From the NCBI RefSeq assembly GCF_001697185.1, contig NZ_CP014224.1, forward strand, positions 1,426,001 to 1,490,000: 64,000 nucleotides of DNA, read 5' to 3'. Under the pieces are notes generated by a model. It was not told where the DNA came from. It was given only the letters and a program-made list of their open reading frames with translations, and ran no database searches. This DNA is from Wenyingzhuangia fucanilytica. GTDB lineage: Bacteria; Bacteroidota; Bacteroidia; Flavobacteriales; Flavobacteriaceae. Below are positions 2,812-45,715 of the stretch, piece after piece (position 1 is the first letter of the stretch; every line of letters begins with the position of its first letter). A program made the position numbers and the translations under genes.

Positions 2812-2856
2812 CATCACAGAACAGGACAGATACAGTCCTGTTTTTTTTTATCATTG
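2812..2856 (+). promoter_or_regulatory. Operator-promoter of the PUL regulon, site 1
   Basis: Direct repeat CATCACA-GAA-CAGGACA at 2812-2828 (10-bp period), then exactly 20 bases to TATCATTG at 2849-2856, a near match to the Bacteroidota -7 element TAnnTTTG. The sulfatase start codon at 2897 is 40 bases further on. It is one of eight elements with the same geometry in this window. It overlaps a terminator hairpin, so its function is less certain than that of sites 2, 4, 5 and 6. Confidence 0.6.
2820..2849 (+). terminator. Hairpin with T-run after the GH3-GH105 unit
   Basis: An 8-bp perfect inverted repeat (AACAGGAC / GTCCTGTT) with a 7-base loop is followed directly by a run of nine T. This is a good intrinsic terminator. 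Its left arm contains the second half-site of the operator described at 2812-2856, so the same bases may serve as terminator and regulator site. Confidence 0.75.
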
Positions 2857-2896
2857 TTTTTATATTGTTCATTTACTAAAAATAAAATCAAACTTG

Positions 2897-4339
2897 ATGT
2901 ATAAAATACTTTTTAAAACCGTTTTTGTTCTTACTGTATTCATGTTGTTTTCTTGTGATAAAAAGAAAAAAGAAACTGTCTCTATAAAAAAACAACCTAA
3001 TGTTTTAATTGTATTAACAGACCAGTTAAGAACTCAAGCAACAGGTTATGCAGGAGATCCAAATGTAAAAACACCTAATATAGATCGTTTAGAAGCTATG
3101 AGTGCAAACTTCCAAAATGCTGTGTCTGGAATGCCTGTATGCACGCCTTTTAAAGCTTCTTTATTAACCGGTCAGAGACCTTTAACAAATGGGGTTTTTA
3201 TGAATGATGTACAATTAGATACCAATGCTGTTTCTATGGGTAAAGTATATGCTCATGAAGGATACCGTACTGGTTTTATTGGTAAATGGCATATTGATGG
3301 ACGAGGAAGAGAAAGTTTTATTCCACCAGGGAATAGAAGACAAGGTTTTCAATTTTGGATGGCCAATGAATGTACTCATAATTATAACAAATCTGTTTAT
3401 TACGATAACGATGACCCAACTCCAAAAAAGTGGGAGGGCTATGATACTTTTGAACAAACCGATGCTGCTATTGAGTTTATAAATTCAAAAAATGAAAATC
3501 CATTTTTATTAGTGCTTTCTTGGGGAACACCACATGCTCCATATGGTTCTGCTCCTAAAAAATATAAAGATATGTTTAAAGCAGAGGATATGATATTAAG
3601 ACCTAATGTGCCAAAAGCAATGCACAAACAGGTTAAAAAGGATATTGCAGGTTATTATGCACATATAGCGGCTATAGATGATATGATAGGTAAATTGATA
3701 AACTCATTAAAAGAAAACAATCAATTAGATAACACTATTATTGTCTTTACATCTGATCATGGAGATTTGTTAGGGTCTCATGGAGCTTATAAAAAACAAC
3801 AACCTTATGAGGAGTCAATAAGAACTCCAATGTTGTTTTATATTCCAGAATCGTTAGGAATAAAACCAGGGGTAAGAAATGCTGTTTTTAACTCAGAAGA
3901 TATTTTTCCTACATTATTAGGATTGTCTGGAATGGCTATCCCTAAAAGTGTAGAAGGTATTAATTATAGAAATTATCTAGAAGGAAAAGATAACTCTGTA
4001 GGAAAAGAAACTATTATTACTTGTGTACAACCTTTTGGACAATGGAATAGACCCAAAAGACATGGTAAAGAATATAGAGGATTGGTAACTCAAAAATATA
4101 CTTATGTAAAAGATTTAAACGGGCCTTGGTTGTTGTTTGATAATGATGCTGATCCTTATCAGATGAATAACTTGATAAATAACAAAGAATATAAAGAAAT
4201 ACAAGCTGACTTAGAAAAACGTTTAACAAAGCGTTTAAAAGCAAATGGAGATGAGTTTTTACCAGGGTCTCATTATTTAGAAAAATGGGGAATCAAAGTA
4301 AACGATGAGGGAACAGTACCATACAGACATCTTTATTAA
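2897..4339 (+). CDS. S1-type sulfatase lipoprotein with a CxPxK active-site motif
   Basis: Type I (formylglycine) sulfatase of 480 residues. It starts at the ATG at 2897; an in-frame TTG just before it is not needed. A lipoprotein signal ends at LFSC (Cys20). Metal-site residues Asp42-Gln43 (VLTDQL) and the TSDHGD motif are present, as is GKWHIDG. The site of formylglycine formation is Cys82, but the motif reads CTPFKASLLTG: the arginine of the usual C-x-P-x-R core is lysine (residue 86). The context (GPxxNGVFMNDVQLD-like region after it) fits arylsulfatase-like S1 subfamilies. It would remove sulfate esters from rhamnose-containing oligosaccharides in the periplasm. First gene of a two-gene unit with GH106, driven by operator site 1. 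Confidence 0.9.
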   Translation: MYKILFKTVFVLTVFMLFSCDKKKKETVSIKKQPNVLIVLTDQLRTQATGYAGDPNVKTPNIDRLEAMSANFQNAVSGMPVCTPFKASLLTGQRPLTNGVFMNDVQLDTNAVSMGKVYAHEGYRTGFIGKWHIDGRGRESFIPPGNRRQGFQFWMANECTHNYNKSVYYDNDDPTPKKWEGYDTFEQTDAAIEFINSKNENPFLLVLSWGTPHAPYGSAPKKYKDMFKAEDMILRPNVPKAMHKQVKKDIAGYYAHIAAIDDMIGKLINSLKENNQLDNTIIVFTSDHGDLLGSHGAYKKQQPYEESIRTPMLFYIPESLGIKPGVRNAVFNSEDIFPTLLGLSGMAIPKSVEGINYRNYLEGKDNSVGKETIITCVQPFGQWNRPKRHGKEYRGLVTQKYTYVKDLNGPWLLFDNDADPYQMNNLINNKEYKEIQADLEKRLTKRLKANGDEFLPGSHYLEKWGIKVNDEGTVPYRHLY

Positions 4340-4486
4340 ACATTACAAAAGCTTTTTAGTCTTTGATAATTTACCATGATGAAAAGCAAATTATTTTAAA
4401 AATTAAAATCTATTTTAAGAATGACAACGTATTGCAGGTTCCTTTTATTAAAATTTAGATTTAACATAAAATATTTAACATTTAAT

Positions 4487-7400
4487 ATGGCTCTGAGACT
4501 TGTATTTTTTCTTGTATTAATTTTATTCACACAATGTAAATTAAAAGAAGATAAACACAATTCAGTTAATGAGTTCCAAGTGTTAAGCAAAGGTTTTAAA
4601 TCTCCTTCTGATAAATTTCGTCCAGAAACATGGTTTCATATCAACGGAAACAATATTAGTAAAGTAGGTTTAACTAAAGATTTAGAAGCAATAAAGGCTG
4701 CTGGATTACAAGGAATTCATCTCTTTAATAAAAGTGGGAGACCTTATCCTAACGTTAGTCAAATAAAAATTTTATCACCTGAATGGGAAGACATGATTCG
4801 TCATGCTGCAGAGGAATGTAAACGTCTTGGTTTAAAATTTACAATGCAAAATTGCCCTGGTTGGTCTATGACGGGAGGTCCATGGGTGCCAGTAGAAGAA
4901 GCACAACGAGAAGTTGTTGAAACTGTTTATCATCTCTCTGGAGGGAAAAAGTATCATGAAATTCTTAAGTTAGATTCGCTTTACAAAACCTCAGATTATA
5001 ATTATAAAGATATTCAAGTTTTAGCTTTTCCAACTCCAGAAGGAGACAATTTAGAGCCTTTTAATCCTTCAGAAATTGAAACGAATAACCAAGTCGTTCC
5101 CTGGAAGGATATTTTTAATCCTAATTCAAAAGTTTTAGTAACTCGTACCACAACTCAATTAGACAAACCACTAAATGAGTATAGAGCACAAGGTATTTCA
5201 AAAATAAATAACAAAGATACTTGGGTTAAAACTAAATTTAATGAAGCCATTACATTGCGTTCTATTGTTTTTCCACAATCTAGACATATGATTATGGGAA
5301 CAGAATATCCTAAAATAGATGTTTCTGTTAAAGTTGAAGCCTTAATGAATGGTGGATTTAGAGAAATAACAACTATTGATTTACCTGATGCAAATTGGAA
5401 TGATAGAAGAAAGCACTTAACTTTAGCTATTCCAGAGACCACATCTAATGAATTTAAATTTACTTTTAAAGGAAAGCACACTATTGTTCCAGAAATTATT
5501 CGTTTAAGTTCCAAACCAAAAAACCATAATTTTGAAGCCAAAGCAGCAAAAGTATTAAGACGTTTAGAAAAAGATGTAGCATATAATTATGCAGAAAACA
5601 CTATTGTAAAAGGGAATTCTATCATTAATTTAACTCATAAAATGGCTCCTGATGGAAAGCTAACTTGGGATGTTCCAAAAGGAAATTGGACGGTAGTTCG
5701 TTTTGGTCATATCAATATGCGATTAACCAATAAACCTGCAGTTCCAGAAGCTACGGGTTGGGAGTCTAGCAAATTAGATAAAAAAGCCATAGAAAATCAT
5801 CTTAAAAAAGGGATGATAGGAAATTTAATTAAAGACGGAGGCCCAATAGGAAATGGAAAATTACAAGGTTTGTTAATAGATAGTTGGGAAAGTCATGTAC
5901 CTACTTGGACCATGAATTCCGATGACATGTTTAAGGAATTTAAGCAAAGACGAGGTTATGATTTGGATAAATATCTACCTGCAACTATGGGATATATTGT
6001 AGATAGTCCAGAAATAACAACTAAGTTTTTGAGGGATTTACGTCAAACGATGGATGATTTATTTATCGAAAATTTCTTTGAACATTTTGCAACCATAGCT
6101 CACGAAATGGGTGCAGAGGTATATACCGAAGGTGCAGGAGGAGAAGTTCTACCCATAGACCCAATGCGTTATTATGGAGTTAGTGATATTCCAATGACTG
6201 AATTTTGGTATCCTAAAGCACCATCTAATCAAAATGAATTTGCAAAACCTATTTTGTCAGCAGCTTCAGCTACACACTTATATAATAAGCCTTTTTTAGC
6301 AGCAGAAGCATGTACACAAGTAGGAGTAAAATGGAATGAACATCCATTTAGTGTAAAATATTTAATAGATTATAATTTTACAAAAGGAGTAAACCATTTG
6401 GTTTTTCATACGTTTTCTCATACACCACAAACCAACGTATATCCTGGGTCTAGTTTTGGAGGGAATATAGGATTTCCTTTTGTTAGAGCACAAACATGGT
6501 GGAAGTACATGCCCGACTGGATTGATTATTTAACTCGTAATCAATATATGCTACAACAAGGAGAATTTGCGGCTGATGTTCTTTGGTATTATGGAGACCA
6601 TTTTGAGCGTCCGCCTTTTGATTTGAATGATTTTCCTAAAGGATATAAATATGATTACTTAAATGAGGAAATATTACAGCAAAAATTAATTGTTAGTAAT
6701 GGTAAAATTAAAGTTAAAGACGCTGGTGATTATCGGGTTATTCTTTTAAGAGATTCCGAAAAGATGTTATTATCTACAGCTAAGAAATTAAAAGAGTTAG
6801 TGTTGAACGGAGCTGTAATTGTAGGAAATAAACCTATAGATTCTCCAAGTTTAATGGATGATGAGAATGATGTAAAAGAATTATTATCAATTTCTAATGA
6901 ATTATGGGGAAATACTAAAAGTGGCATAAAAAAAGTAGGGGAAGGAAAAGTGTATTGGGGAACAACTATAGAAGAAGTATTACAAAAGGAAGCTATTATG
7001 CCAGATGTAATAGTTCCAAAAAATACCGATGTGCAGTGGATTCATCGTAAAACCGATGCTGCAGATATTTACTTTGTATCTACCAAGAGTGAGCAACCTA
7101 CAGATGTATCAATCAGTTTTAGAGCTAAAAATGCTTATCCTCAATTTTGGGATGCTTTTACAGGAAAACAATATGATGCCACTGTTTGGAGTAAAACAAA
7201 AGATAGAATTAATGTAGCTGTATCTTTTGATGCTAGCGGAAGTGCAATTGTTGTTTTTCCTAAAGGAAATAAAAAGCCGTATGCAACAAAAGTTGAATTT
7301 GAAGGCGAACCAGTATTAAGTTCGGAAAGAGGGTGGTATAGAATTCATGAAAAAGATGATTTAGTTCGTGTTAAAATAGAAAAAAACAAATTACAAGCAT

Positions 7401-7939: not shown

Positions 7940-8268
7940 AGATGTAGTTTAAGATTATTACTATAGTCTAAATTACTAACGGACTTTTATAATATCCTTT
8001 AAGGATATGAAATCATATGTGTTCATATTCAAAACAGTTAGACTCTAGGTGTTCACCCAAGAAAGAAGAAGGAGTAAGCCGAGTAAAATACTTAATTTAA
8101 CATTTTAAGGTTATAGACTAATTATTTCATTTCTTAATATGTAACATAGGCCTTAAAATAGTCATTGTCTAGGAGAGTAAATAACTTGATTTATTTTATG
8201 AATTATTAAAAGAAACAGTTGTTTTATTGATTATTTGGTATTAAATATAGTGGTTTTGTTGATGCTGT
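7940..8268. other. Gene-free stretch before the first susC
   Basis: No reading frame is convincing here. A near-perfect palindrome (ATATCCTT-T-AAGGATAT, 7992-8008) follows the GH106 stop but has no T-run, so it is a weak terminator candidate. The heptamer GTGTTCA occurs twice (near 8019 and 8050). The operator for susC begins at 8269, leaving this stretch otherwise unexplained. Confidence 0.5.
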
Positions 8269-8313
8269 CAGGTCAGGTCAGGACAGGTAAACACATTTTT
8301 AAAAATATATTTA
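8269..8313 (+). promoter_or_regulatory. Operator-promoter of the PUL regulon, site 2 (susC)
   Basis: Direct repeat CAGGTCA-GGT-CAGGACA at 8269-8285, then 20 bases to TATATTTA at 8306-8313 (TAnnTTTG-like -7 box). The susC ATG at 8343 is 29 bases downstream. The whole stretch reads as a run of overlapping CAGGTCA units, the most repetitive of the eight sites. Confidence 0.75.
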
Positions 8314-8342
8314 CCAACTACTAATTATTAACTAAATATTAT

Positions 8343-13356: not shown

Positions 13357-16300
13357 ATGAAAATAAATAAATTATATAGGCTATTTACACTATTCTGCCT
13401 AACACTATTTTGCTTTTGCGATTTTGCAATAGCTCAAACAACGGGCTCTAGTGCAAATGCAACTGTGGTTGATGAGCAAGGAAATCCTATTAGGAATGTA
13501 AATATTTTTGGGCCTAATGGAGTACAAACTATTACAGATGATAATGGAAATTTTGAAGTTGATTTACCTTATGAACAATCAGTAGTTATACAAAAAGAGG
13601 GGTTTGAATCAGAACTACTTAAAGTTATTGATTTAACAGGTAAGATTGTCTTAGAAAAATCACCTTTTTTAGCTTCTGAAGATGACGAAATAAAAATGGG
13701 AGTTACAACTAAAGACAGACGAGATATTGTAGGTTCTGTTGCTTCTATTAACACAAAAGATCGTGTTGTTTACGACAACACCCAGTGGGTAAGAGATTAT
13801 ATTAACGGTTTAATGTTAGGTGTTAAAGGTTCTGCAAATGTTAGAGGATTAGGTAATGCACTTTTTGTTATTGATGGTGTTATTGGTCGTAATCCCAATA
13901 TTTTAAATATGCAAGAAGTTGAGCAGATAACAGTACTTAAAGATGCAAATTCGGTTGCTTTATATGGAAGTCAAGGAAGAAATGGGGTAATTATTATCAA
14001 TACCAAAAGAGGAAAAATAAATCAAAAACAGGTTAATGTAAATGTACTTTCAGGAGTTAGAATGCCAATTTCATTACCTAATTATTTAGGATCTGTTGAT
14101 TATATGGAACTTTATAATGAGGCTAGAAGAAATGATGGTTTAACAGATTTTTATGCTCCAACTCTTATTGAAGAGTTTAAAAATAGCACAAACAAATATC
14201 GTTACCCTGATACAGATTTTTATTCAGATGAGTATTTACGTCCATTTGTTAATACTGCAAATATTGTTGCAGATTTTTCTGGAGGAGATGAAAAAACACA
14301 GTATTATGTAAATATGGGGTGGAATCATGACCAATCTTTGGTTAAAATAAATCCAGATGCAAATGTAGGAACTAATAGATTTAATGTAAGGGGAAATATA
14401 GATTTTAAAATAAATGATTGGATTACAAGTTCTCTTGATGGTGTTGCTATTTTGAGTAATACAAAAAGTGCTTTATCAAATTTATTAAATAGCGGTACTA
14501 GTTTTAAGCCTAATAGTTATGCTCCTTTATTACCTGTTTCTATGATAGATGCAACTGGGAATCCAGCATTGGCTGCTCAATTAAAAGGAGCTGGAATATT
14601 TGACGGAATGTTATTAGGAGGATCTCAGCAGTTTCAAAATAATACTCCAATAGCAAATATTATTGGAGGTGGATATCAAAAATCAGTTTTTCGTTCTACA
14701 CAGTTTAACAATTCTGTAAATTTTGATTTAGATATGATTACCGAAGGGTTGTCTGCTAAGACTTACCTAAGTTTTGATTTTTATGATGCTTATAACATAT
14801 CTGTAAGAAATGACTATGCTGTTTATGAGCCTACCTGGCAAGATGATAAAATTATTGGTTTAACACCGTTCGGTGGGCCAGATAAAAAGGACTTAACAGA
14901 AAATATTAGTACAAATGATTTTGTTTCTAGGTTAGGTTTTTACGGGTTGGTAAACTATAAAAGAACATTTAACAAAAAGCATTCATTCAACAGTACCTTC
15001 TTAGGTTACTTTAATTCGCAAAAAGAAAATAATACGATTCAATCAGATATCAACTCACATTTAGGGTTCCAATTAGCTTATGATTATAAGAAAAAAATGT
15101 TTGTTGATTTTAGTGCTGCATATGTTAACTCTATTAAATTACCAGATGGAAATAGAACAGCACTTTCACCAACGTTAGGATTGGCATATGCACTTAGTGA
15201 AGAACAATTTTTTAAAAATATAGATTTTGTTGACTACTTAAAGATTAAAGCATCGGCGGGAATTATTAATTCAGATTTAGGAATAGATAGTTATTATTTA
15301 TATGGCGAAAACTTTTCTGATGGTTCTGCATTTAACTGGGCTGATGGACAAAGTACTAATAGAAGACAAAATGTTTCTCAGGGAGCAAATCCAAACTTAG
15401 GTTATGAACAACGTGTAGATTTAAATGTTGGTTTTGAGAGTTATTTAATGAAATCAATTTGGTTAGAGTTTAATTACTTTAAATCAGATTTAGACAAACA
15501 AGTAACTTTTTTAAATAGTAAATATCCTTCTTTTTATAACACTTTTAAACCTTATGATAATTATAATAAGAATACCTATAGTGGTTTTGAGTTAGGTTTG
15601 AATTATAATAAAAATATTAATGACTTTAGCGTTAATCTAGGAGCTAACATTCTTTATAATAAAGCTGAAATAACTAAAAGAGATGAAATAAATGAGTATG
15701 CTTACCAAAATAGAGTAGGTACAGCTACTACAGCAATTGTAGGTTTAGTTGATCAAGGTTTTTATTCAGAAAATGATTTTGATGTAGCTGGTAATGGTGA
15801 TTTATCTTTAAAAAGTAATTTCCCTGTTCCTGCTTTTGGATCAGTTCAACCTGGAGATATAAAATATAAGGATCAAAATGGTGATAATATTATCGATAAT
15901 AACGATAGAGTTGTTATTGGTATGGGGAATAGCCCTTGGTCTTATGGATTAAATCTTAACCTAAAATATAAAAGACTTAATTTATTTGTGTTAGGAACAG
16001 GTCAGATTGGAGGTGAAGCAATGAAGTCTAATAATTACTATAAGGTAAATGGTAATGATAAATATTCTGAAGTTGTTTTAGGGCGTTGGACTCCTCAAAC
16101 AGCAAATACCGCTACTTATCCAAGATTGTCTTCTGGATCAAATCAAAATAACTTTCAAAATTCAACTTTTTGGATGTATGACAATAGTTTCTTTAAAATC
16201 AACCGAGCTCAGTTAACTTATGAATTTAATGAGAAAGTATGTAGTGATTTAGGAATGAAAGATTTTAGTATTAACGTTTCGGGGACTAATCTTTTTGAAA

Positions 16301-16389
16301 TTGCTGAAAATAGAGATGTTCGTCAGTTAAGTATTGGAGGAAGTCCTCTATACAGAACCTTCACGTTAGGTTTAAGAACATCATTTTAA
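13357..16389 (+). CDS. SusC-type TonB-dependent transporter (second pair), reduced TonB-box/plug region
   Basis: A second SusC-like transporter of 1010 residues with signal peptide (to about IAQ, residue 27), a carboxypeptidase-D-like domain (TVVDEQGNPIRNVNIFGPNG), plug core (ALFVIDGVIGRNPNILNMQEVEQITVLKDANSVALYG) and a beta-barrel ending FTLGLRTSF. The usual EVVVVGYG TonB-box segment is not recognisable. In its place stands a polar stretch (DDEIKMGVTTKDRRDIVGS), and the part of the plug that normally reads LQGRVAGV..SGxPG..xIRIRG is shortened to NGLMLGVKGSANVRGLG. It may take a different oligomer from the first transporter, or be energised in a less standard way. It lies 40 bases after susD1 and 26 before susD2. 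Confidence 0.95.
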   Translation: MKINKLYRLFTLFCLTLFCFCDFAIAQTTGSSANATVVDEQGNPIRNVNIFGPNGVQTITDDNGNFEVDLPYEQSVVIQKEGFESELLKVIDLTGKIVLEKSPFLASEDDEIKMGVTTKDRRDIVGSVASINTKDRVVYDNTQWVRDYINGLMLGVKGSANVRGLGNALFVIDGVIGRNPNILNMQEVEQITVLKDANSVALYGSQGRNGVIIINTKRGKINQKQVNVNVLSGVRMPISLPNYLGSVDYMELYNEARRNDGLTDFYAPTLIEEFKNSTNKYRYPDTDFYSDEYLRPFVNTANIVADFSGGDEKTQYYVNMGWNHDQSLVKINPDANVGTNRFNVRGNIDFKINDWITSSLDGVAILSNTKSALSNLLNSGTSFKPNSYAPLLPVSMIDATGNPALAAQLKGAGIFDGMLLGGSQQFQNNTPIANIIGGGYQKSVFRSTQFNNSVNFDLDMITEGLSAKTYLSFDFYDAYNISVRNDYAVYEPTWQDDKIIGLTPFGGPDKKDLTENISTNDFVSRLGFYGLVNYKRTFNKKHSFNSTFLGYFNSQKENNTIQSDINSHLGFQLAYDYKKKMFVDFSAAYVNSIKLPDGNRTALSPTLGLAYALSEEQFFKNIDFVDYLKIKASAGIINSDLGIDSYYLYGENFSDGSAFNWADGQSTNRRQNVSQGANPNLGYEQRVDLNVGFESYLMKSIWLEFNYFKSDLDKQVTFLNSKYPSFYNTFKPYDNYNKNTYSGFELGLNYNKNINDFSVNLGANILYNKAEITKRDEINEYAYQNRVGTATTAIVGLVDQGFYSENDFDVAGNGDLSLKSNFPVPAFGSVQPGDIKYKDQNGDNIIDNNDRVVIGMGNSPWSYGLNLNLKYKRLNLFVLGTGQIGGEAMKSNNYYKVNGNDKYSEVVLGRWTPQTANTATYPRLSSGSNQNNFQNSTFWMYDNSFFKINRAQLTYEFNEKVCSDLGMKDFSINVSGTNLFEIAENRDVRQLSIGGSPLYRTFTLGLRTSF

Positions 16390-19449: not shown

Positions 19450-20370
19450 TTAAGATGTTGGAACTTTTTTCACGACTTTGTTAACACCATCCCATAAAAT
19501 TTCTGCTTCACCACCATGACAACGATAAGCACCAAAACGAATTTTTGCTTGTAATGCACGTTCAGGGCTAGGTACATCCCAATTGTAATCTGTGGCTCCA
19601 ATTCTTACGTTTACATAATGTCTTCTACTTGTCCCTGATCCAGTAAAACCATTTTCTATTTTAAAAAACTTTCTGGTATTCGCAGGTATGTTTGTTAAAT
19701 AAACCAATTGTCTTCCGGTAACTCCTGATCCTCCTCTTTCTGTTATTTCTTCTCTATAAATATCATAAGATACTTGTGTACTTCCAGAAAAGATAGGTTT
19801 AGCTACAATTAAACATATTGCTGGGTCTGCAGATCCGCCACCTCCAGAGTGTTTGCCTTTTGCTTGGGCTATATATGTTCCTGATTTATCTCTTATATCA
19901 TCACGGTCATATGAGTCACTTAGATGTCCTGCTCTTTTTATTGTTACATATCCTGTAAAACGAACATAACTTCCATCCCCTATATCATTAGAATTAATGG
20001 ATGGTGTTGTTCGTTCTATTCTCGGTTGTAAATCATCGATATGATTGGTACCTGCAGCTATTTTGTATACTCCATAAGTTCTATTGTTAAAAGTTGTTTG
20101 TGAGTAATCTGCAAAACAGGTTCTGTCATCAATTATTTTATTCACGTTTTTATTTACATCAAAGCCTGCGGTATACTCATATTCTCTATCTGTATTTTTA
20201 AATTGATCAAAACACTTAGAGTTATTGGTAACCTTATTTAAGGTGTTTGTTGAATAAGTAGAATTCGAACCTGAAGTTTCTTTTTCGCCAAAAGTAATTT
20301 CGTTTTCACTAGAACAAGAAGCAATAAGTCCTAGTGGTAGAATAATAAGTTTAGATAATTTGTTTTTCAT
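19450..20370 (-). CDS. Jelly-roll polysaccharide lyase-like lipoprotein (PL28 ulvan-lyase candidate)
   Basis: The only convincing minus-strand gene: 306 residues with a lipoprotein signal ending at LIASC (Cys19) and a low-complexity linker. The rest looks like an all-beta jelly roll of the PL7/PL20/PL28 type: GDGSYVRFTGYVTIKRAG, a central strand GTYIAQAKGKHSG in the place of the lyases' catalytic QxxG strand, CLIVAKPIFSGSTQVSYDIYREEI, and RHYVNVRIGATDYNWDV. The C-terminal KIRFGAYRCHGGEAEILWDGV is the closing strand seen in these lyases. The length equals a PL28 catalytic module. PL28 enzymes cut ulvan between sulfated rhamnose and glucuronic acid, which suits the locus. I am fairly sure of the fold type and less sure of the family number. 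It has its own operator (site 3) and terminator. Confidence 0.55.
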   Translation of the reverse strand: MKNKLSKLIILPLGLIASCSSENEITFGEKETSGSNSTYSTNTLNKVTNNSKCFDQFKNTDREYEYTAGFDVNKNVNKIIDDRTCFADYSQTTFNNRTYGVYKIAAGTNHIDDLQPRIERTTPSINSNDIGDGSYVRFTGYVTIKRAGHLSDSYDRDDIRDKSGTYIAQAKGKHSGGGGSADPAICLIVAKPIFSGSTQVSYDIYREEITERGGSGVTGRQLVYLTNIPANTRKFFKIENGFTGSGTSRRHYVNVRIGATDYNWDVPSPERALQAKIRFGAYRCHGGEAEILWDGVNKVVKKVPTS

Positions 20371-20431: not shown

Positions 20432-20475
20432 TAAATTCATACTTACTTATAGTTTATCTGTCCTGTCTTGTACTG
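20432..20475 (-). promoter_or_regulatory. Operator-promoter of the PUL regulon, site 3 (minus strand)
   Basis: Read on the - strand: CAGTACA-AGA-CAGGACA (20475 to 20459), then 19 bases to TGAATTTA (20439 to 20432), a weaker TAnnTTTG-like box. The start codon at 20370 is 61 bases downstream. It shows that the shared element also marks the one gene on the opposite strand. Confidence 0.65.
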
Positions 20476-20650: not shown

Positions 20651-20695
20651 CAAGACAAATCAGGACAGATTCACAAATACCATTTACTATGTTTA
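20651..20695 (+). promoter_or_regulatory. Operator-promoter of the PUL regulon, site 4
   Basis: Direct repeat CAAGACA-AAT-CAGGACA at 20651-20667, then 20 bases to TATGTTTA at 20688-20695. The start codon of the cytochrome/DUF1553 gene is at 20761, giving a 65-base gap after the -7 box. Confidence 0.75.
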
Positions 20696-20760: not shown

Positions 20761-23598
20761 ATGGAGGATATAAATTGGGTTTTTCAATTATTAGGCCGTA
20801 TGCATCCTTTATTGGTGCATTTTCCGGTAGGGTTATTAGTTGTTGCTTTATTTCTTGAAATTCTTTCGTTTAGAGATAAAAAAAGTGAATTGCGTGGAGG
20901 TATCAAATGGATGGTTTACTTAGGTGCTTTATCTGCTTTTTTTTCTGCAGTTTTTGGTTGGCTACTACGTACCCAAGAAAATTATAGTGGTAGCTTGGTT
21001 AATAATCACCAGTATACAGGAATAGCAACAACTGTTTTGGCTGTAATTACTGCTTTTGTTTTAAGAAATACTTTAAATAAAAAAAATAAAGATTTACGTT
21101 TATATAGATTGATGCTTATGATAACAGTTGTTGTTTTAAGTATTGCAGGACATTTAGGAGCAAATTTAACCCATGGTGAAGATTATTTAACTGCTGTTTT
21201 GCCAAGTAAAAACAATCGTTATAATGATAAAAAATCAGAAGAGTTACTTTCTGATTTAAAAAAAACAGAAACTTTATCCGAATTACAACTAGATAAATTA
21301 AATCTAGAAGTCAGGGGGATATTTGCACATAAATGTTATCAATGTCATAGTGAAAACAAACAAAAAGGAGAGCTAATTCTAGAGCATAAGGAAGGTGTTT
21401 TTAAAGGAGGTAAGTCTGGTCCATCTATTGTTGCAGGAAAACCAGAACAAAGCGAAGTTTATAGAAGAATTACACTTCCTGCTGGTCATAAAAAAGTAAT
21501 GCCAACCAAAGGAAAACTATTAACTGCTAACGAAATTGCTTTGGTTAAGCTTTGGATTCAAAAAGGAGCACATTGGTCCGATAAAGAAGTTAAGGTGTTT
21601 CCAGAAGCAGCATTGGCACTTCATAAACCTACGTTACCAAAAGTAGAAGAACAAAACCATCCTGTAGATAAATTAATTGATAAATATTTTGATACTCATC
21701 AATTAGATTGGCCAAATGTAGTTGATGATAGAACTTTTATAAAACGTGTTTATATGGATGTTATAGGATTGTTACCAGATCCTAATGCTATTCAAAAATT
21801 TATACAAGATGAAACTACTAATAAACGTGAAGAGTTAATAGATTTTCTGCTTAATGACGATAAAAACTACACACAACATTGGCTAAGTTTTTGGAATGAT
21901 TTACTAAGAAATGATTATAGTGGAACTGGATTTATTACTGGAGGAAGAAAACAAATTACAGGTTGGTTATATAAATCTTTAATAAATAATCACTCTTATG
22001 ATCAAATGGTCAAAGAATTAATAAACCCTGTAAAAGGTTCAGAAGGGTTTATTAAAGGGATTCAATGGCGTGGAGTTGTAAATGCAAGTCAAAGAACAGA
22101 AATGCAAGCAGCACAGAACATAGGACAATCTTTGTTAGGAGCAAATGTTAAATGTGCTTCATGTCATAATAGTTTTGTTAGTAATATGACTTTAGATCAG
22201 GCTTATGGTTTTGCAACTATTTTTTCAGATTCTATACTTGAATTAAACCGCTGTGATAAACCTATTGGAAAAATGGCAAAACCTAATTTTTTATACCCTG
22301 AATTAGGTAGTGTTGATGATAAAACAGTAAAGGAACGCTTGGTAAAATTATCTAAGGTAATGGTGCAAAGAGAAAACGGAAGATTGTATCGTACTTTAAC
22401 CAATCGTTTTTGGGATCGCTTAATGGGGAGAGGTATTATTGTTCCTCTTGATGAAATGGATAATACTCCTTGGAATGCTGAGTTGTTAGACTGGTTAGCT
22501 GCTGATTTTGTAGATTCAGGTTCAGACTTAAAACACTTGTTAAAACAAATTTTAACATCAAAGGCGTACCAACTACCAGTAGTAAATTATCAAAAAATAA
22601 AAGAGGTTAAAGATAATTATGTTTTTAAAGGACCTGTTTTAAGACGTTTGAGTGCAGAGCAATTCTCAGATGCCGTAAGTCAGGTTATTTCTCCTCTTTA
22701 TAAGGCTGTTGAATATAATCCTAATGGCGAAAAAATAAATGCACAACGTGTATGGCATAAAGAAATGAGCGTTAATCGGGTGGTACTTCCTGAACCAGGA
22801 AAGAGATATTTCAGAAAAAGTTTTAATCTATCTAAAATAGATATAAGATCTGCTAAAGTTTTAATTTCTGTAGATCATAGTTATCAATTGTACTTAAATG
22901 GAAAAAAAATATCTGAAGCTGATGATTGGACTAAAGTAAATAAGTTAGATGTTTCTTCTTATTTAAAATTAGGACAAAATACCATTGCTATTAAAGGTGA
23001 AAACGAAGGGACTATAGGAAACCCAGCAGGAGTTTTGTTTTCTATGCAAATTATTTTTCAATCAGGAGAAAAGTTATATATAAACTCAGATGAGAGTTGG
23101 AAAAGTACAGATCAATTGCCAAATAAAACATGGGTAACTAATCAATTTGATGATAAATCGTGGAATCTAGTTAAAAATTATGGCACTCAAAATTGGGGAC
23201 ATTTAATCAATTTTACATTTAAAAATAAAGAAGGAACATTTGCAAGAGCAAGTCTTGTAAAACAACATCCTTTTATGAAAGCTTTAGGTAGGCCAAGTAG
23301 AGAAATTGTAACCACTTCTAGAGAGGAACAAGCTACATTATTACAAGCTTTAGAGTTAACAAATGGAGCTTTTTTTAATAGAACTTTAGAAGTTGGAGCT
23401 CAAGAATGGATTGATAATTACGGTCATAATAGTAAAAAAATTATAGAGGAATTATATTTAAGAGCATTGGGAAGAAATCCTACTAAGGAAGAAAAGAATA
23501 TGCTAATGAATGCCTTAGGAGATCATCCACAAAAAGAGCAATTACAAGATGTCTTTTGGGCGATTTTAATGTCTCCAGAATTTCAGTTTATCTATTAA
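20761..23598 (+). CDS. Multidomain membrane cytochrome protein: DUF2231 - PSCyt1 - PSCyt2/DUF1549 - PSD1/DUF1553
   Basis: A 945-residue protein with a hydrophobic N-terminal part of about four membrane segments (residues ~15-140, DUF2231 type, starting GRMHPLLVHFPVGLLVVALFLEI). Next comes a planctomycete-type cytochrome-c domain with haem motif CYQCH (Cys192) and KVMPTKGKLLTANEIALVKLWIQKGA. A DUF1549 domain (FIKRVYMDVIGLLPDPNAIQKF) and a DUF1553 domain (LLDWLAADFVDSGSDLKHLLKQILTSKAYQLP, RRLSAEQFSDAVSQ) follow. A second haem-type motif, CASCH (Cys465), lies between them. An inserted galactose-binding-like sandwich (RYFRKSFNLSKIDIRSAKVLISVD, YQLYLNGKKI) splits the C-terminal part. This set is best known from Planctomycetes and its reaction is not established. 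Together with the DUF1501 and NHL genes it may form a periplasmic redox complex acting on sugar. Confidence 0.88.
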   Translation: MEDINWVFQLLGRMHPLLVHFPVGLLVVALFLEILSFRDKKSELRGGIKWMVYLGALSAFFSAVFGWLLRTQENYSGSLVNNHQYTGIATTVLAVITAFVLRNTLNKKNKDLRLYRLMLMITVVVLSIAGHLGANLTHGEDYLTAVLPSKNNRYNDKKSEELLSDLKKTETLSELQLDKLNLEVRGIFAHKCYQCHSENKQKGELILEHKEGVFKGGKSGPSIVAGKPEQSEVYRRITLPAGHKKVMPTKGKLLTANEIALVKLWIQKGAHWSDKEVKVFPEAALALHKPTLPKVEEQNHPVDKLIDKYFDTHQLDWPNVVDDRTFIKRVYMDVIGLLPDPNAIQKFIQDETTNKREELIDFLLNDDKNYTQHWLSFWNDLLRNDYSGTGFITGGRKQITGWLYKSLINNHSYDQMVKELINPVKGSEGFIKGIQWRGVVNASQRTEMQAAQNIGQSLLGANVKCASCHNSFVSNMTLDQAYGFATIFSDSILELNRCDKPIGKMAKPNFLYPELGSVDDKTVKERLVKLSKVMVQRENGRLYRTLTNRFWDRLMGRGIIVPLDEMDNTPWNAELLDWLAADFVDSGSDLKHLLKQILTSKAYQLPVVNYQKIKEVKDNYVFKGPVLRRLSAEQFSDAVSQVISPLYKAVEYNPNGEKINAQRVWHKEMSVNRVVLPEPGKRYFRKSFNLSKIDIRSAKVLISVDHSYQLYLNGKKISEADDWTKVNKLDVSSYLKLGQNTIAIKGENEGTIGNPAGVLFSMQIIFQSGEKLYINSDESWKSTDQLPNKTWVTNQFDDKSWNLVKNYGTQNWGHLINFTFKNKEGTFARASLVKQHPFMKALGRPSREIVTTSREEQATLLQALELTNGAFFNRTLEVGAQEWIDNYGHNSKKIIEELYLRALGRNPTKEEKNMLMNALGDHPQKEQLQDVFWAILMSPEFQFIY

Positions 23599-23626
23599 AT
23601 AAATTTTTCATTAAACATAAAAGGAT

Positions 23627-25081: not shown

Positions 25082-25115
25082 AAACAAACGGAATTTCTAT
25101 TAAAATTACATCAAA

Positions 25116-26198
25116 ATGAAACGTAGAACATTTATAAACACCACCGCAAAAGCTGGAGCAGGTATAGTTGCCATTCCACATTTTAATATTTTAAAATCTA
25201 AGCCTAAATTATCAGACTCTGTTATTGGTCATGGAGATTTTAAATATAGGATACATAAATCATGGGGTGATTTAGATAGAACAACAACTCCCGTAAAGAA
25301 TTGTCATGAAATGGTGATGGATTCTAAAGGAAGGCTTATTATGGTTGGTGATGATGTTCATAATAATATTTTGATTTATGATAAATCAGGAAAATTGTTA
25401 GACTCATGGGGAATCCGTTACAAAGGAGGTCATGGTCTTTCGTTATGGAATGATGGATCAGAAGATTTTCTATTTATTTGCGATACCAATGGAAGCCTGA
25501 TAAAAACGACTACTGATGGTAGAGAGTTAATGTTGATTGGTCACCCATCAGAATATGGGGCTTATAAAAAAGAGGATCCTTTTAAACCTACAGAATCTGC
25601 TATTGCACCTAATGGTGATATTTATATTGCCGATGGTTATGGATCCAATTACATATTACAATTTACTAAAGATGGTGAGTTTGTCAGAAAAATTGGTGGA
25701 GGTAGAGGTGTCGGAGAAAATCAATTCCAAACAGCACATGGTGTTTGTATAGATAATAGAGGAAGTGGAAATCCAACATTGTTAATTACTTCGAGAGCAG
25801 CCAATTGTTTTAAGCGTTTTACTTTGGATGGAAATTATATAGAAACAATTTCACTTCCTGGAGCTTTTGTGTGTCGCCCTGTAATTCATAATGACAATTT
25901 ATACTCAGGAGTATGTTGGTCTTCGGATATAAAATTTGAAGAAGGTAATATGAAAACTCATCCTACTCGTACTAGTAAACAGTCTGGATTTGTTACAATT
26001 TTAGATAAGAGTGGAAAGGTAGTTTCTAATCCTGGAGGAACAAAACCTACTTATAAAAATGGAGAACTACAAACCATGTTACAAAGTCAACCAATATTTA
26101 AACACTGTCATGATGTTTGTGTAGATAATGATGAAAATTTATATGTGTGTCAGTGGAATGCAAATAAAGCATATCCTATTAAACTAGAGAGGGTTTAA
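25116..26198 (+). CDS. NHL-repeat six-bladed beta-propeller protein, exported
   Basis: A 360-residue protein whose start (MKRRTFINTTAKAGAGIVAIP) looks like a Tat-type or similar export signal. The rest is made of NHL-like blades: HEMVMDSKGRLIMVGDDVHNNILIYDKSGKLLDSWG, SAIAPNGDIYIADGYGSNYILQFTKDGEFVRKIGG, HGVCIDNRG and HDVCVDNDENLYVCQWN. Histidines recur at equivalent blade positions (NCHEM, GGHGLS, TAHGV, KHCHDV). This pattern, with the ~360-residue length, resembles the metal-binding core of peptidyl-hydroxyglycine lyase-like propellers. It is the third gene of the cytochrome cassette (34-base gap). A role as a metal-dependent enzyme or docking propeller is inferred. Confidence 0.82.
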   Translation: MKRRTFINTTAKAGAGIVAIPHFNILKSKPKLSDSVIGHGDFKYRIHKSWGDLDRTTTPVKNCHEMVMDSKGRLIMVGDDVHNNILIYDKSGKLLDSWGIRYKGGHGLSLWNDGSEDFLFICDTNGSLIKTTTDGRELMLIGHPSEYGAYKKEDPFKPTESAIAPNGDIYIADGYGSNYILQFTKDGEFVRKIGGGRGVGENQFQTAHGVCIDNRGSGNPTLLITSRAANCFKRFTLDGNYIETISLPGAFVCRPVIHNDNLYSGVCWSSDIKFEEGNMKTHPTRTSKQSGFVTILDKSGKVVSNPGGTKPTYKNGELQTMLQSQPIFKHCHDVCVDNDENLYVCQWNANKAYPIKLERV

Positions 26199-26213: not shown

Positions 26214-26258
26214 CGTAACAGTACAGAATAGTTATAATTATAGTCATCATTAAATTTG
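26214..26258 (+). promoter_or_regulatory. Operator-promoter of the PUL regulon, site 8
   Basis: Weaker direct repeat CGTAACA-GTA-CAGAATA at 26214-26230, but with a perfect TAnnTTTG box (TAAATTTG, 26251-26258) at the standard 20-base distance. The start codon at 26286 is 27 bases on. Geometry, more than half-site sequence, supports this one. Confidence 0.55.
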
Positions 26259-34557: not shown

Positions 34558-34602
34558 CGGTACTGAGCAGTACAGTAATCACGTTTGTTAAAATTATCTT
34601 GC
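34558..34602 (+). promoter_or_regulatory. Operator-promoter of the PUL regulon, site 7
   Basis: Direct repeat CGGTACT-GAG-CAGTACA at 34558-34574, then 20 bases to TATCTTGC at 34595-34602, an imperfect TAnnTTTG box. The start codon is at 34625. The centre (GTACTGAGCAGTAC) is also an inverted repeat, which none of the other sites show. Confidence 0.55.
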
Positions 34603-36064: not shown

Positions 36065-36072
36065 GTAAACAA

Positions 36073-38730: not shown

Positions 38731-38752
38731 AGGTTTTTAAAATAAATAAAAG

Positions 38753-40198: not shown

Positions 40199-40217
40199 AA
40201 AAACTGTTGTTCGTTGT

Positions 40218-40258
40218 TACCCTCTTTTTCGATTATGTGAATTAGAGGGTATTTTTTT
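40218..40258 (+). terminator. Terminator after the second sulfatase unit
   Basis: TACCCTCT, an 18-base loop and AGAGGGTA form a perfect 8-bp stem with a seven-T tail. Confidence 0.85.
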
Positions 40259-40506
40259 ATAAAATATATTACTTAAAAAAGTAAAACCCTAGTGAAAATA
40301 AGGTACAGTTATGTAAAATTAAATTACATCAAATAAAAGTAAAGGATGGAGTTTATAACAATTTTGTATAGAAAATCCCATAAATATAGAGTGTGATTCA
40401 AACTACTAAATATGCAATTTTGTAGTTATTTGTTTGTGTTATGTTTGTTTTTTTAGTCTTTTTTTTGTGATTAAATTATTTAACAGGTGTTTTTATTGGT
40501 TTTTTA
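40259..40506. other. AT-rich spacer before the lectin gene
   Basis: I see no reading frame, hairpin or repeat with support in this stretch. The regulon operator begins at its right end. Confidence 0.6.
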
Positions 40507-40551
40507 CAGGACAAATCAGGATAAGAATAATAATAATGAATGATAAGTTTG
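40507..40551 (+). promoter_or_regulatory. Operator-promoter of the PUL regulon, site 5
   Basis: Direct repeat CAGGACA-AAT-CAGGATA at 40507-40523, then 20 bases to a perfect -7 box TAAGTTTG at 40544-40551. The lectin start codon at 40575 is 23 bases further. This is the cleanest example of the full arrangement. Confidence 0.8.
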
Positions 40552-40574
40552 AAAAAACTTAAACATTTATAATT

Positions 40575-41354: not shown

Positions 41355-41383
41355 TATTTAGAATTTTAATTTAAAAGTAGTTA

Positions 41384-41415
41384 AAACATTCTTCTTTTTT
41401 TAGAAGAATGTTTTT
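41384..41415 (+). terminator. Terminator of the lectin gene
   Basis: AAACATTCTTCT, a six-T loop and AGAAGAATGTTT form a perfect 12-bp stem with a T tail. Confidence 0.93.
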
Positions 41416-41451
41416 GTGGTAAAATAGATTAAGCCATTTCAAATTTAAATT

Positions 41452-42663: not shown

Positions 42664-42679
42664 ATAAATACAAAAGATT

Positions 42680-42994
42680 ATGCAAAGATTAGCTTTTAAA
42701 ATGAAGTTGAATAAAGGCCAAAAAGAAACGTATAAAAAAAGACATGATGAGTTGTGGCCAGAACTTAAAAAGCTCTTAAAAGAGAACGGAGTTAGTGAAT
42801 ATTCTATTTTTTTAGACGAAGAAACAAGTACTCTTTTTGCTTTTCAAAAAATTTCTGGTAATGGAGGGTCTCAAGATTTGTCAAGTAATCCCATAGTAAA
42901 AAAATGGTGGGATTTTATGTCTGATATTATGGAGGTAAACTCTGATAATTCTCCTGTTTCTATTCCGTTACAAGAGTTGTTTTATATGAAATAG
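42680..42994 (+). CDS. rhaM: L-rhamnose mutarotase
   Basis: A 104-residue cytoplasmic protein without signal peptide. It matches L-rhamnose mutarotase along its full length: MQRLAFKMKLNKGQKETYKKRHDELWPEL with the active-site Tyr/His region, SIFLDEETSTLFAFQKI, and VKKWWDFMSDIMEVN. It interconverts alpha and beta anomers of L-rhamnose before isomerisation. It is the only cytoplasmic sugar-metabolism gene in the window and the most direct evidence that free rhamnose is the product. It follows the upstream lyase by 16 bases. Confidence 0.95.
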   Translation: MQRLAFKMKLNKGQKETYKKRHDELWPELKKLLKENGVSEYSIFLDEETSTLFAFQKISGNGGSQDLSSNPIVKKWWDFMSDIMEVNSDNSPVSIPLQELFYMK

Positions 42995-43048
42995 TATAGA
43001 GCTTTTTAACAGTAATTAATTTTACGCCAATAAATTAAATATAATAAA

Positions 43049-45499
43049 ATGAAAAAAAAATATTTAAAGTTTATGTATGGATTTAAATCCATGCAATTAT
43101 ATCTTATACTTCTTTGTGCATTTATTTCACATGCACAGGTTGTGTTAGAAAATGAAATAAAAATAACAGATTTCGGGTTACATTTTGATGGATCAAAAGT
43201 TACTAGTGGAGCAACAAATACTGGAGATAGTTCTCCTTATGACTATTATTTTGGTCGAAATATTTCAGCACATGGAGATTGTATAAAAACATATAATGAA
43301 TATGTTTTTATGACATGGTATCGTGGGGGTAAAGACGATCGTCATGTGATGCTAACACGATATAATACAAATACAGGAAGTCAAGTAACTGTTGAGTTTC
43401 CACATAGGCATACAGGTTATCAAAATAAATATTGGATAGGAGAATCTCATAACAGCATAGCCGTAGCAGTTAGTCCTATAGATGGCACAATTCATTTATT
43501 ATATGATATGCATGCATATAGTAACACAAGACCTTCTGATGGTAGTTTAAGTAATGACTACTTTAGATACTCTTATTCTGTAAAAAATGCAGCATCTGTA
43601 CCTGATGGAGAATTTACTTTAAATCAATTTGTTCAAAATAATACAGGAGGGTACAAACATTTAAGTTTAAATGGAGGAGAAGATTATACCAATTTTGCAG
43701 CTTTAACTTATCCACAATTTTTTCTAAACGATGCAGGTGATATTTTTATGTATATGAGAGAAGGAGGGAATAATAATGGTGCATATAAATTTTCAAAATA
43801 TGATGCTACTACTTCTACATGGTCAAGTTTTACACACTTTAATGTTTTAAATGCTAAAAATCAATCTGGGATAGATTACAATTGGGGACTTTACGGAAAC
43901 ATGAAATATGTAAATGGAAAAATAAGAATTGGTTTTCAAAGAAGATTGGCTAATAATAATGATAAATACCAATATCAAAATGGTGTATATTATGCCTATT
44001 CAGATAATCAAAATGGTACAAATGCGTGGAAAAATCATCAAGGTCAAAATATTTCTTTACCTCTTTATGATGCTGATTTAATTAAAGTAATGGAACCAGG
44101 TGATTATGTGCAATCAACGGAAGCAAATAAAGTTTACATTGTTGGTGATTTTGATTGGACAGTTACTAATAATGGAGATGTACATATTATTAGTAAGGTA
44201 AAAGACAATCAATACAATGTAACTAAATATTTACACACCTATAAGCCTGCTGGTTCTACTGATTTTATTACTACTGAAGATTTTTCAAGAGCCACTTCAA
44301 TTTACACAGCTGGAGATAATATATATATTATTGGTTTAACCAGTGCTGGTCGTGTTTTTGTAGAAAAGGCAGAAGGGGGAACTAATAATTTTACTAGAGT
44401 TTATGAAGCTACCTCAGGTAGAACTTTTGATCATGGTAGAGTGCATATTGCTGATGGTAAATTGTATTATTACCTTATGGAGGATAGTTCTGGTGATGCA
44501 CGTCCTTTATATCTTCAGATAGTAGATTTAGATATTCATCAAGATCCTTTTAGAGTTTCTTTAACATCTCCTACTAGTGGGGAAGTTTTTGAGGTTGGTG
44601 AAACTGTTCAAATTTCAGCAAATGCTATTGATGAAAATAATGGTATTTCTAAAGTTGAATTTAGGGTAAACGGTTCTTATCATGGAGAGGATAACACAGA
44701 ACCATATACTATTAATTTTATTTCAAATACAGAAGGGGATCAGAGCATACAAGCCGTAGCTTATAATACAAACAATGAGACTGTAAGTTCTGCTGAAATC
44801 ACCATCAATTTTAAGATTCATGATCCTACAGATTTAACCAATGATGTTTATAAGTTAAAAAATGTGGCTACAGGAAAATATTTAACTTCAGATGATTCAA
44901 ACCTTATAGGAAGTGATTCTGGTGATGGAGTCGCTAAAGAGTGGGAGTTTGTGAATGCTGGAACAGGGGATTTTGTCAACATCAATAGTCGTACAAGTAA
45001 GGGGGTTTTAAGGTTTACTGGAGGTTCTGCAGGAACTATGATTAATACATCTTTTTCTCCTCCAAGAACAGATACTGATAAAATATGGACCGTTCATTAT
45101 CATCAAGCAGATGACAATTATTCTTTCGAAACTAATAATGTAAATAGGTATTTATATCACGATGTAAATGAAGGAATTATTCATTCATCATCTTCAGATA
45201 ACGGAAGTAGATGGGTTTTAGAATCTACTTCAGAAGATTTAAGTACAGATGATGTTCAAATAAATAGTATTAAAGTATTTCCAAATCCTGCAAGTGAAAG
45301 TTTTACGATTTCTTTTAAAGGAGCAACCAATGCTAGTGTAATAATTTATAATATACTTGGTGAAACTATATATAAAGAGGTAACCTCTAACCAAACCATT
45401 ACAATAAACAATCATGACAGGTTTAAACCAGGAGTGTACTTAATTAGAATTGTAGGAGATTATCATAAAGTGTTGAATACTAAATTAATTATAGAATAA
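43049..45499 (+). CDS. BNR_4 seven-bladed propeller lyase (PL24/PL25 ulvan-lyase type) with lectin and T9SS domains
   Basis: An 816-residue secreted enzyme. After a signal peptide (to about SHAQ, residue 30) it has a BNR_4 beta-propeller with the conserved stretch YVFMTWYRGGKDDRHVMLTRYN, EFPHRHTGYQNKYWIGESHNSI and IHLLYDMHAY, to about residue 490. This matches the ulvan lyases of PL24/PL25, where His and Tyr in these strands are catalytic. Then come an Ig-like domain (SLTSPTSGEVFEVGETVQI), a ricin-like module (DVYKLKNVATGKYLTSDD to RWVLEST, about 600-725) and a T9SS sorting domain (SIKVFPNPASESFTISF to the end). It would cut the polymer at or outside the cell surface. The PL24 versus PL25 choice is open. 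Confidence 0.85.
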   Translation: MKKKYLKFMYGFKSMQLYLILLCAFISHAQVVLENEIKITDFGLHFDGSKVTSGATNTGDSSPYDYYFGRNISAHGDCIKTYNEYVFMTWYRGGKDDRHVMLTRYNTNTGSQVTVEFPHRHTGYQNKYWIGESHNSIAVAVSPIDGTIHLLYDMHAYSNTRPSDGSLSNDYFRYSYSVKNAASVPDGEFTLNQFVQNNTGGYKHLSLNGGEDYTNFAALTYPQFFLNDAGDIFMYMREGGNNNGAYKFSKYDATTSTWSSFTHFNVLNAKNQSGIDYNWGLYGNMKYVNGKIRIGFQRRLANNNDKYQYQNGVYYAYSDNQNGTNAWKNHQGQNISLPLYDADLIKVMEPGDYVQSTEANKVYIVGDFDWTVTNNGDVHIISKVKDNQYNVTKYLHTYKPAGSTDFITTEDFSRATSIYTAGDNIYIIGLTSAGRVFVEKAEGGTNNFTRVYEATSGRTFDHGRVHIADGKLYYYLMEDSSGDARPLYLQIVDLDIHQDPFRVSLTSPTSGEVFEVGETVQISANAIDENNGISKVEFRVNGSYHGEDNTEPYTINFISNTEGDQSIQAVAYNTNNETVSSAEITINFKIHDPTDLTNDVYKLKNVATGKYLTSDDSNLIGSDSGDGVAKEWEFVNAGTGDFVNINSRTSKGVLRFTGGSAGTMINTSFSPPRTDTDKIWTVHYHQADDNYSFETNNVNRYLYHDVNEGIIHSSSSDNGSRWVLESTSEDLSTDDVQINSIKVFPNPASESFTISFKGATNASVIIYNILGETIYKEVTSNQTITINNHDRFKPGVYLIRIVGDYHKVLNTKLIIE

Positions 45500-45526
45500 G
45501 TTTTAACCCATAATTTACTTCATATT

Positions 45527-45561
45527 AATCATCCAGTTTCATTTAAGCTGGATGATTTTTT
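45527..45561 (+). terminator. Terminator after the lyase-rhaM-lyase unit
   Basis: AATCATCCAG, an 11-base loop and CTGGATGATT form a perfect 10-bp stem with a T tail. Confidence 0.9.
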
Positions 45562-45670
45562 GTTTGATAACTAAGCGTTTTTGTACTGTTAGGTATTATT
45601 AATAAGTAAAAACAACACCTCTATTTTATTATAAAAACACAGTATAGTTTCAGGTGTTATGAAATTTTGC

Positions 45671-45715
45671 CCATGCAATACAGGACAGAAAATTTAGAGA
45701 TGCTAATTAACTTTA
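45671..45715 (+). promoter_or_regulatory. Operator-promoter of the PUL regulon, site 6
   Basis: Direct repeat CCATGCA-ATA-CAGGACA at 45671-45687 (left half weak, right half perfect), then 20 bases to TAACTTTA at 45708-45715. The start codon at 45748 follows 32 bases later. It precedes the longest unit of the window, seven genes to the right edge. Confidence 0.7.

Follow-up and report, generated by a model that had tools for sequence, protein, structure and literature searches.

Which protein reads the operator that recurs in front of the transcription units of an ulvan-type locus in Wenyingzhuangia fucanilytica? The DNA considered here, the window, is a stretch of 64,000 nucleotides corresponding to bases 1426001-1490000 of a genome that consists of a single 3.43-Mb contig (NZ_CP014224.1); seven-digit positions below refer to the genome and shorter ones to the window. 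An initial annotation had described eight promoters in the window in which a 10-bp direct repeat precedes a -7 box, and had suggested an AraC-type or hybrid two-component system (HTCS) regulator. All eight sites are present at the positions and with the spacing it gave. We propose, with a probability of about 0.8, that each site would be the operator of a GntR-family sugar regulator and part of a rhamnose-ulvan regulon.

A single operator-promoter design recurs in and around the window

The repeat, first read as two heptamers, is better described as two octamers, CAG(T/G)ACAG-nn-CAGGACAG, followed by 19 nt and then TAnnTTTG. Fifteen promoters share CAGTACAG-nn-CAGGACAG, the fixed gap and TAnnTTTG, which confirms that one design is repeated. 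The gap between operator and -7 box is 19 nt in 13 of them and 18 nt in two, the minus-strand site at 20475 and one outside the window. An alignment of 16 sites from in and outside the window reads C-A-G-T-A-C-A-G, two free bases, C-A-G-G-A-C-A-G, 19 bases and TAnnTTT(G/A). Its best column outside operator and box (-70 to +70) reaches 0.51 bits, compared with 2.5 at a conserved C. The operator of this genome is a 10-bp direct repeat rather than a palindrome, and column counts of the own-site alignment show no inverted partner of the half-site. Likewise, no upstream copy of the operator at a 21-bp period was seen at these sites. The second octamer occupies the place of the -33 box; the promoters have no TTTG-like -33 box because the operator fills that place. 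The weakest -7 boxes are TATCTTGC at 34558 and TTCTTTTG at 1405142.

The design extends past the eight units to 1393021, 1400459, 1405142, 1412552, 1420735, 1492602 and 1501039. The 15 promoters with operator and -7 box lie in 184 kb around the window, and the locus spans 108 kb. The sulfatase-GH78 fusion gene is preceded by two operators, 1420735 and 1420832, the latter lying 97 bases downstream of the former, past that one's -7 box, and its own box is weak. A degenerate copy of the 1393021 promoter and its flanks is found at 1509277 between convergent genes and resembles a duplication relic.

To scan the region we used an operator matrix built from the 15 own sites, with leave-one-out operator scores of 12.1-25.3. 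At an operator score of at least 12 and a box score of at least 4, the 184-kb region gave 13 matches, all of them outside open reading frames (ORFs) of at least 80 codons, to which 8.2% of the region is external. The same thresholds gave 0 matches in the reversed 184-kb region and 0 in 540 kb around the genome's other HTCS genes. The scan is partly circular because the matrix derives from the sites scanned. The heptamer pattern of the initial annotation with one G added matches 12 places in the genome at up to 2 mismatches, seven of them outside the window. Four of these seven fall within the 120 kb flanking the window (3.6% of the rest; binomial 5e-5), each before a gene, the match at 1420832 preceding the same gene as 1420735. 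Genome-wide, a degenerate composite of operator and box has 13 matches at up to 2 mismatches, of which 12 fall in 1.393-1.501 Mb. When as many as 3 mismatches are allowed, the genome contains 26 matches, versus 6 for a backwards control.

The composite pattern was shaped on the own sites, and tests across genomes are therefore less circular. With the exact 19-nt gap it has matches in 83 of 397 genomes of the family, the backwards control in 1 of 397 (G042). In a draw of 118 genomes from the phylum, five have composite matches, four of them in the family (the own genome included) and one elsewhere. The latter, G403, belongs to another family of the same class and carries three clustered composite sites (C2:2404549, 2427687 and 2435562), the sole matches outside the family in that sample.

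A GntR-family gene accompanies the operator

Among 20 motif-bearing 20-kb stretches from 19 other genomes, two neighbours of the sites recur: a RhaEW operon and, often divergent from it, a GntR gene of about 349 codons. Three copies of this gene surround the window, at 1403991-1405043, 1415232-1416266 and 1499958-1500995; the view that the regulator is not encoded in the window is upheld. A winged helix-turn-helix (wHTH) match of 43.2 bits to PF00392 (cut-off 27) places the protein in the GntR family. A profile of 30 homologs compared with the PDB finds GntR wHTH structures, including the DNA-binding domain of AraR (4egy, E 1.2e-8). It also gives a weak match, over profile positions 275-347, to the C-terminal part of 2qu7 (E 1.1e-4), titled a putative transcriptional regulator, and by eye the conserved C-terminal stretch probably resembles a LacI-type sensor. 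On the opposite strand the octamer reads CTGTACTG and contains TGTAC, which we take to be part of the AraR half-site.

The gene follows the operator closely across genomes. We counted full-length homologs with at least 49% identity to the copy at 1403991, the next full-length matches having at most 46%. All 60 genomes with at least two composite matches have such a homolog, as do 14 of 23 with one and 3 of 33 with none. Pooled, this amounts to 74 of 83 motif-bearing versus 3 of 33 motif-free genomes (Fisher 2e-16, a value that ignores relatedness). Split by test set, the counts are 36/36 for the first motif-bearing genomes (the own genome, 33 with at least three matches and two congeners with one or two), 38/47 for the remaining ones and 3/33 for the motif-free genomes, which were hand-picked, mostly for large size. 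At an identity limit of 54% they become 36/36, 28/47 and 3/33. A 123-codon GntR fragment at 52% in G110 is not counted apart, and one counted match (G224) has an internal stop codon. Two of the motif-free exceptions have a weaker operator beside the GntR gene (L225, score 19.0; L231, 18.8).

The targets point to rhamnose. At home, the GntR gene 1499958-1500995 is followed by the operator at 1501039 and by a rhamnose operon at 1501121, which contains RhaEW (TIGR02632, over cut-off) and, below cut-offs, rhamnose isomerase-like, rhamnulokinase-like and L-lactate dehydrogenase-like genes. In 36 stretches of relatives we found 63 sites with operator and box, four of which fall within a called ORF. 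RhaEW is the first gene at 20 sites, a sulfatase-GH78 fusion at nine, a SusC-like gene at six and a GntR gene at four, with single cases of GH2, GH5, a lyase, a ricin-domain protein and a transporter; 14 of the 63 first genes are unmatched to the reference set and five sites have no gene in reach. These counts are not a random sample, because the stretches were picked for sites (L157-L176) or for sites or GntR genes (L237-L252). A GntR gene lies within 500 bp of 13 of the 20 RhaEW sites; where only the sites had guided the choice of stretch, the count is 6 of 11. The operator thus stands before rhamnose catabolic genes both at home and in relatives, as expected of a rhamnose regulon. With GntR as the binder, the genes for ulvan, a polysaccharide of green algae, would therefore be co-controlled with those for rhamnose, the main sugar in it.

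GntR paralogs have 10-bp repeats of their own

We compared the upstream regions of 40 GntR paralogs (34-46% identity, drawn from weaker homolog matches, some from related genomes). Among periods of 6-30, 10 is the best direct-repeat period upstream of 23 of them, ties being shared. The same holds for 47 of 351 control regions, and for shuffled sequences the mean is 1.6 of 40. The clade names used here rest on the best BLAST match to a few representatives. Galactose-type paralogs have CTAGTA/TACYAG half-sites: by eye, 18 of 19 show repeats that are CTAGTAGGGTCTAGTAGG-like or TACTAGTACCTACCAGTT-like. Their mutarotase-, galK- and galT-like neighbours were likewise assigned by eye. At four of these loci (L253, L256-L258) the rhamnose operator matrix finds no match beside the GntR gene; L258 has one match, inside an ORF elsewhere. 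Xylose-type paralogs have ACCAGAACAG-like repeats in 10 of 12 cases, close to the start codon, and a xylulokinase-like neighbour (below cut-off). Uronate-type repeats, CAGGAYRSAGCAGGACRG, stand beside five paralogs; these pairs were noticed by the closeness of site and gene in lists, and four of the five sites come from a search that required 19 nt. Mannonate oxidoreductase, uxuA, kduI and gluconate 5-dehydrogenase are over cut-off in L238, where the uronate operon was identified with NCBIfam; the other uronate operons were identified by eye.

The half-site varies with the protein clade and the 10-bp period stays constant, which supports binding by GntR independently of the co-occurrence. Since the paralogs have 10-bp repeats of their own, half-sites arranged head-to-tail appear to be the rule in this GntR subfamily. 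If the rule holds, the 10-bp direct repeat and the clade-specific half-site could guide the annotation of sugar regulons in many genomes.

Points that weigh against the GntR assignment

The assignment is strong but correlative, and we infer from it binding, the head-to-tail dimer, activation and the ligand. Several observations weigh against it. Co-occurrence could be indirect, with GntR gene and operator both travelling with rhamnose or ulvan genes. Nine of the 83 motif-bearing genomes have no GntR homolog at 49% identity or more (G019, G022, G038, G064, G112, G120, G150, G255 and G357), each with a single composite match; in G019 that match lies directly beside a GntR gene of 35% identity. 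Conversely, G173, the third of the motif-free exceptions, has a GntR gene (60%) with no operator at a score of at least 18 within about 1.5 kb, and five of the 11 RhaEW loci in site-chosen stretches have no GntR gene within 500 bp. The match of the protein to Peripla_BP_3, 22.9 bits, is below the cut-off of 26.5. GntR regulators are mostly repressors that bind palindromes.

The period rule has its own exceptions. Period 10 is also the commonest in the control regions (the 47 of 351), partly because many of them come from operator-bearing stretches. Nine rhamnose-like paralogs, with 32-50% identity in the DNA-binding region, have no convincing 10-bp repeat upstream (L281 scores 9.4, the rest at most 7.8). 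The xylose-type repeats, of the ACCAGAACAGAACAGAACGG kind (L286-L288, L290, L291 and L293-L297), adjoin the start codon, a place that resembles that of a repressor site.

The operator position favours activation

How would the regulator act? The initial annotation placed the repeat over the -33 region at a fixed distance from the -7 box, where an activator could touch RNA polymerase, and the promoter geometry supports this. Among 54 intergenic operator matches selected with no spacing requirement, which include overlapping matches and a tandem array (L110), the best -7 box lies at exactly 19 nt in 31, out of 44 possible gaps; for intragenic matches the figure is 1 of 9. Together with the 13 of 15 own promoters, these counts describe an operator fixed over the -33/-35 element, as in class II activation. 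In the promoter type with TAnnTTTG, transcription starts about 5 nt after the -7 box. Assuming such a start, the operator centre would lie near -41, where class II activators bind.

We suggest the following sequence of events. The GntR protein, made up of a wHTH and a probable periplasmic-binding-protein-like sensor domain, would bind each operator, the two octamers serving as half-sites. Because these have the same orientation and lie one helical turn apart, a dimer would bind head-to-tail. The operator would replace the -33 box at a fixed distance from the -7 box. During ulvan digestion the sensor domain would take up L-rhamnose or one of its products, and the regulator would then activate the ulvan locus together with the rhamnose operon, through which the sugar is consumed. 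Granted the GntR assignment, we consider it likely that the protein acts as an activator.

The alternative that survives best keeps GntR as the binder and takes its share from within that assignment: a repressor that blocks the -33 region and is released by rhamnose. It is possible, though we doubt it. AraR-type GntR proteins with such sensor domains are repressors, and operator and -33 position overlap. At 1420832 there is a further operator, downstream of the promoter that comes first, and those of the xylose-type paralogs are at the start codon. A repressor does not need the exact 19-nt spacing, however, and this spacing is kept in relatives; the promoters, moreover, have the operator in place of a TTTG-like -33 box. 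The exact spacing therefore favours a class II activator.

For a broader statement we see about even chances: that a GntR subfamily of Flavobacteriaceae-like bacteria reads 10-bp repeats head-to-tail, with half-sites specific to the rhamnose, uronate, xylose and galactose clades, and that its rhamnose branch is a class II activator which commands a polysaccharide locus from the monomer end. If this is true, cytoplasmic sensing of the final product of ulvan digestion would replace or supplement oligosaccharide sensing by HTCS, and control would shift from membrane sensing to cytoplasmic monomer sensing.

The HTCS pair and other candidate regulators

The suggestion of an AraC-type or HTCS regulator is not supported, as co-occurrence and repeat period disagree with it and GntR fits instead. 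The HTCS pair was tested because it is the nearest such pair and hence the natural candidate. HTCS-A (1396152-1400237) and HTCS-B (1416380-1420429) are encoded upstream of the window, inside the operator-bearing locus, and are thus linked to the target genes. If the operator belonged to them, they would respond to ulvan oligosaccharides and bind DNA in the manner of AraC-type activators. The identity between their DNA-binding domains is 56-57%, and that to the domains of the other HTCS compared does not exceed 43%. The corresponding clade (at least 53% identity, the next among the matches listed having at most 47%) is enriched, being present in 15 of 36 motif-bearing versus 2 of 33 motif-free genomes among 69 chosen genomes (Fisher 7e-4); this comparison covered 36 of the 83 motif-bearing genomes.

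The same comparison also counts against the pair, since the clade is missing from 21 of the 36 motif-bearing genomes tested, and a search of G268, a genome with four sites, gave no match at E<=1e-15. Just two of the 20 motif-bearing stretches contain an HTCS gene, with 38-41% identity in the DNA-binding region; L165 is the single case among the 11 RhaEW loci of this set. Eight loci related to HTCS-B were retrieved, none of them useful. In the available portion of PMC3878776, HTCS regulons of Bacteroides resemble the present case in having direct repeats 5' of polysaccharide loci; they differ in the predicted operators, whose repeat period is about 21 bp, a period that none of the own sites has. 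A further difference is the membrane sensor of HTCS. HTCS regulation in Bacteroides is also treated in the accessible part of PMC11253607, and that of PMC12125979 deals with an AraC-type Vibrio regulator with direct repeats. We regard ownership of the operator by HTCS-A and HTCS-B as improbable and, on neighbourhood (2/20) and co-occurrence (15/36), rejected HTCS as the main regulator. The pair may still act on the ulvan locus through other sites.

An OmpR/PhoB-type response regulator is a still weaker candidate, and we consider it very unlikely. Operators of this type are tandem 10-11 bp repeats over the -35 region. No such regulator is found among 60 Pfam-scanned ORFs of window and flanks, a subset of the ORFs of the region, and the association with GntR leaves little for it to explain. 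That the repeats arose by chance or were copied along with the genes we practically dismiss: the 1393021/1509277 pair is a visible duplicate with flanks, but strong conservation in the 16-site alignment is limited to operator and -7 box, and the backwards control finds almost nothing across the family.

Relation to known regulators

A close parallel to the GntR protein is AraR of Bacillus, a GntR wHTH joined to a LacI-like sensor. The two have in common the related wHTH (4egy) and a sugar regulon, and the Peripla_BP_3 match below cut-off hints at a similar sensor. AraR binds a palindrome, whereas the regulator considered here has direct repeats 10 bp apart; it also differs in the fixed promoter distance, which suggests activation, in the sugar and in the phylum. 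Regulators of the MocR/GabR branch of GntR bind direct repeats with a different spacing. They share the GntR wHTH but carry an aminotransferase-like sensor domain, according to the text at hand of PMC5320631.

Within Bacteroidota, the part of PMC3878776 available describes FucR (BT1272) and ManR (BT2103) of Bacteroides as GntR-family regulators of monosaccharide use. The FucR regulon is one operon, whereas the regulon proposed here would comprise a whole polysaccharide locus and a sugar operon. As far as the text of PMC3870299 is available, comparative genomics assigns rhamnose regulators to AraC, DeoR and LacI types; its novel AraC-type regulators have 21-bp repeats, and its DeoR-family RhaR regulons have imperfect 10-11 bp direct repeats similar to ours, with a protein of another family. 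The main text of that paper, in the portion available, contains no mention of GntR or Flavobacteri, and the accessible parts of PMC5507952 and PMC8511951 name no rhamnose GntR regulator. PMC12858550, in its available part, concerns an E. coli RhaS biosensor that has no bearing on the ulvan operator. Within the open-access literature as far as accessible, we found no report of a GntR rhamnose regulator for an ulvan locus. With the GntR assignment, ulvan digestion in marine Bacteroidota gains a candidate regulator that can be put to the test. The defined promoter architecture, with an operator for the -33 box and 19 nt to TAnnTTTG, may also be usable in these bacteria.

Operators and genes of the ulvan locus

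Judged by its Pfam matches, the locus is of the ulvan type. They include a PL28 ulvan lyase, an ulvan-lyase beta-trefoil protein, GH78 and GH106 rhamnosidases, GH88, GH3 and GH39, further GH43, GH2 and GH59, many sulfatases and a sulfatase-GH78 fusion. Three SusC/SusD-like pairs are present; the SusC-like protein 13357-16389 was assigned by size, place and a weak match only.

The first operator of the window, CATCACAGAACAGGACAG (2812..2829, plus strand), lies 5' of a sulfatase/GH106 unit (ORF 2894), with the -7 box TATCATTG at 2849..2856, 19 nt past the operator. On the same strand, CAGGTCAGGTCAGGACAG (8269..8286; box TATATTTA, 8306..8313) precedes SusC (ORF 8343) and two SusC/SusD-like pairs. 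The one minus-strand operator, CAGTACAAGACAGGACAG (20458..20475), lies 5' of the PL28 ulvan lyase gene (ORF 19450-20370, minus), and its box, TGAATTTA at 20432..20439, follows after 18 nt. The remaining five are on the plus strand. CAAGACAAATCAGGACAG at 20651..20668, with box TATGTTTA at 20688..20695, stands 5' of a PSCyt/DUF1553 gene (ORF 20761), and CGTAACAGTACAGAATAG at 26214..26231, with TAAATTTG at 26251..26258, is found 5' of ORF 26286 (a secretion-tail protein) and GH78. The GH5-like ORF 34625 follows CGGTACTGAGCAGTACAG (34558..34575), whose box TATCTTGC (34595..34602) is the weakest in the window. ORF 40575 is preceded by CAGGACAAATCAGGATAA (40507..40524; box TAAGTTTG, 40544..40551), and ORF 45748 and GH78/GH2 genes by CCATGCAATACAGGACAG (45671..45688; box TAACTTTA, 45708..45715).

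The matrix scan finds no operator in 42664-43048, the 385 bases 5' of the ulvan-lyase-type gene 43049-45499. Its homologue in L168 does have one, CGGTACAGTACAGGATAC. The gene in the window may be read from the 40507 promoter or be under another regulator. Planctomycete-type cytochrome/DUF1553 genes occur in and next to the ulvan locus, at 20761-26198 of the window and at L005:9383-18706; the set in the window also has DUF1501, and an operator in front.

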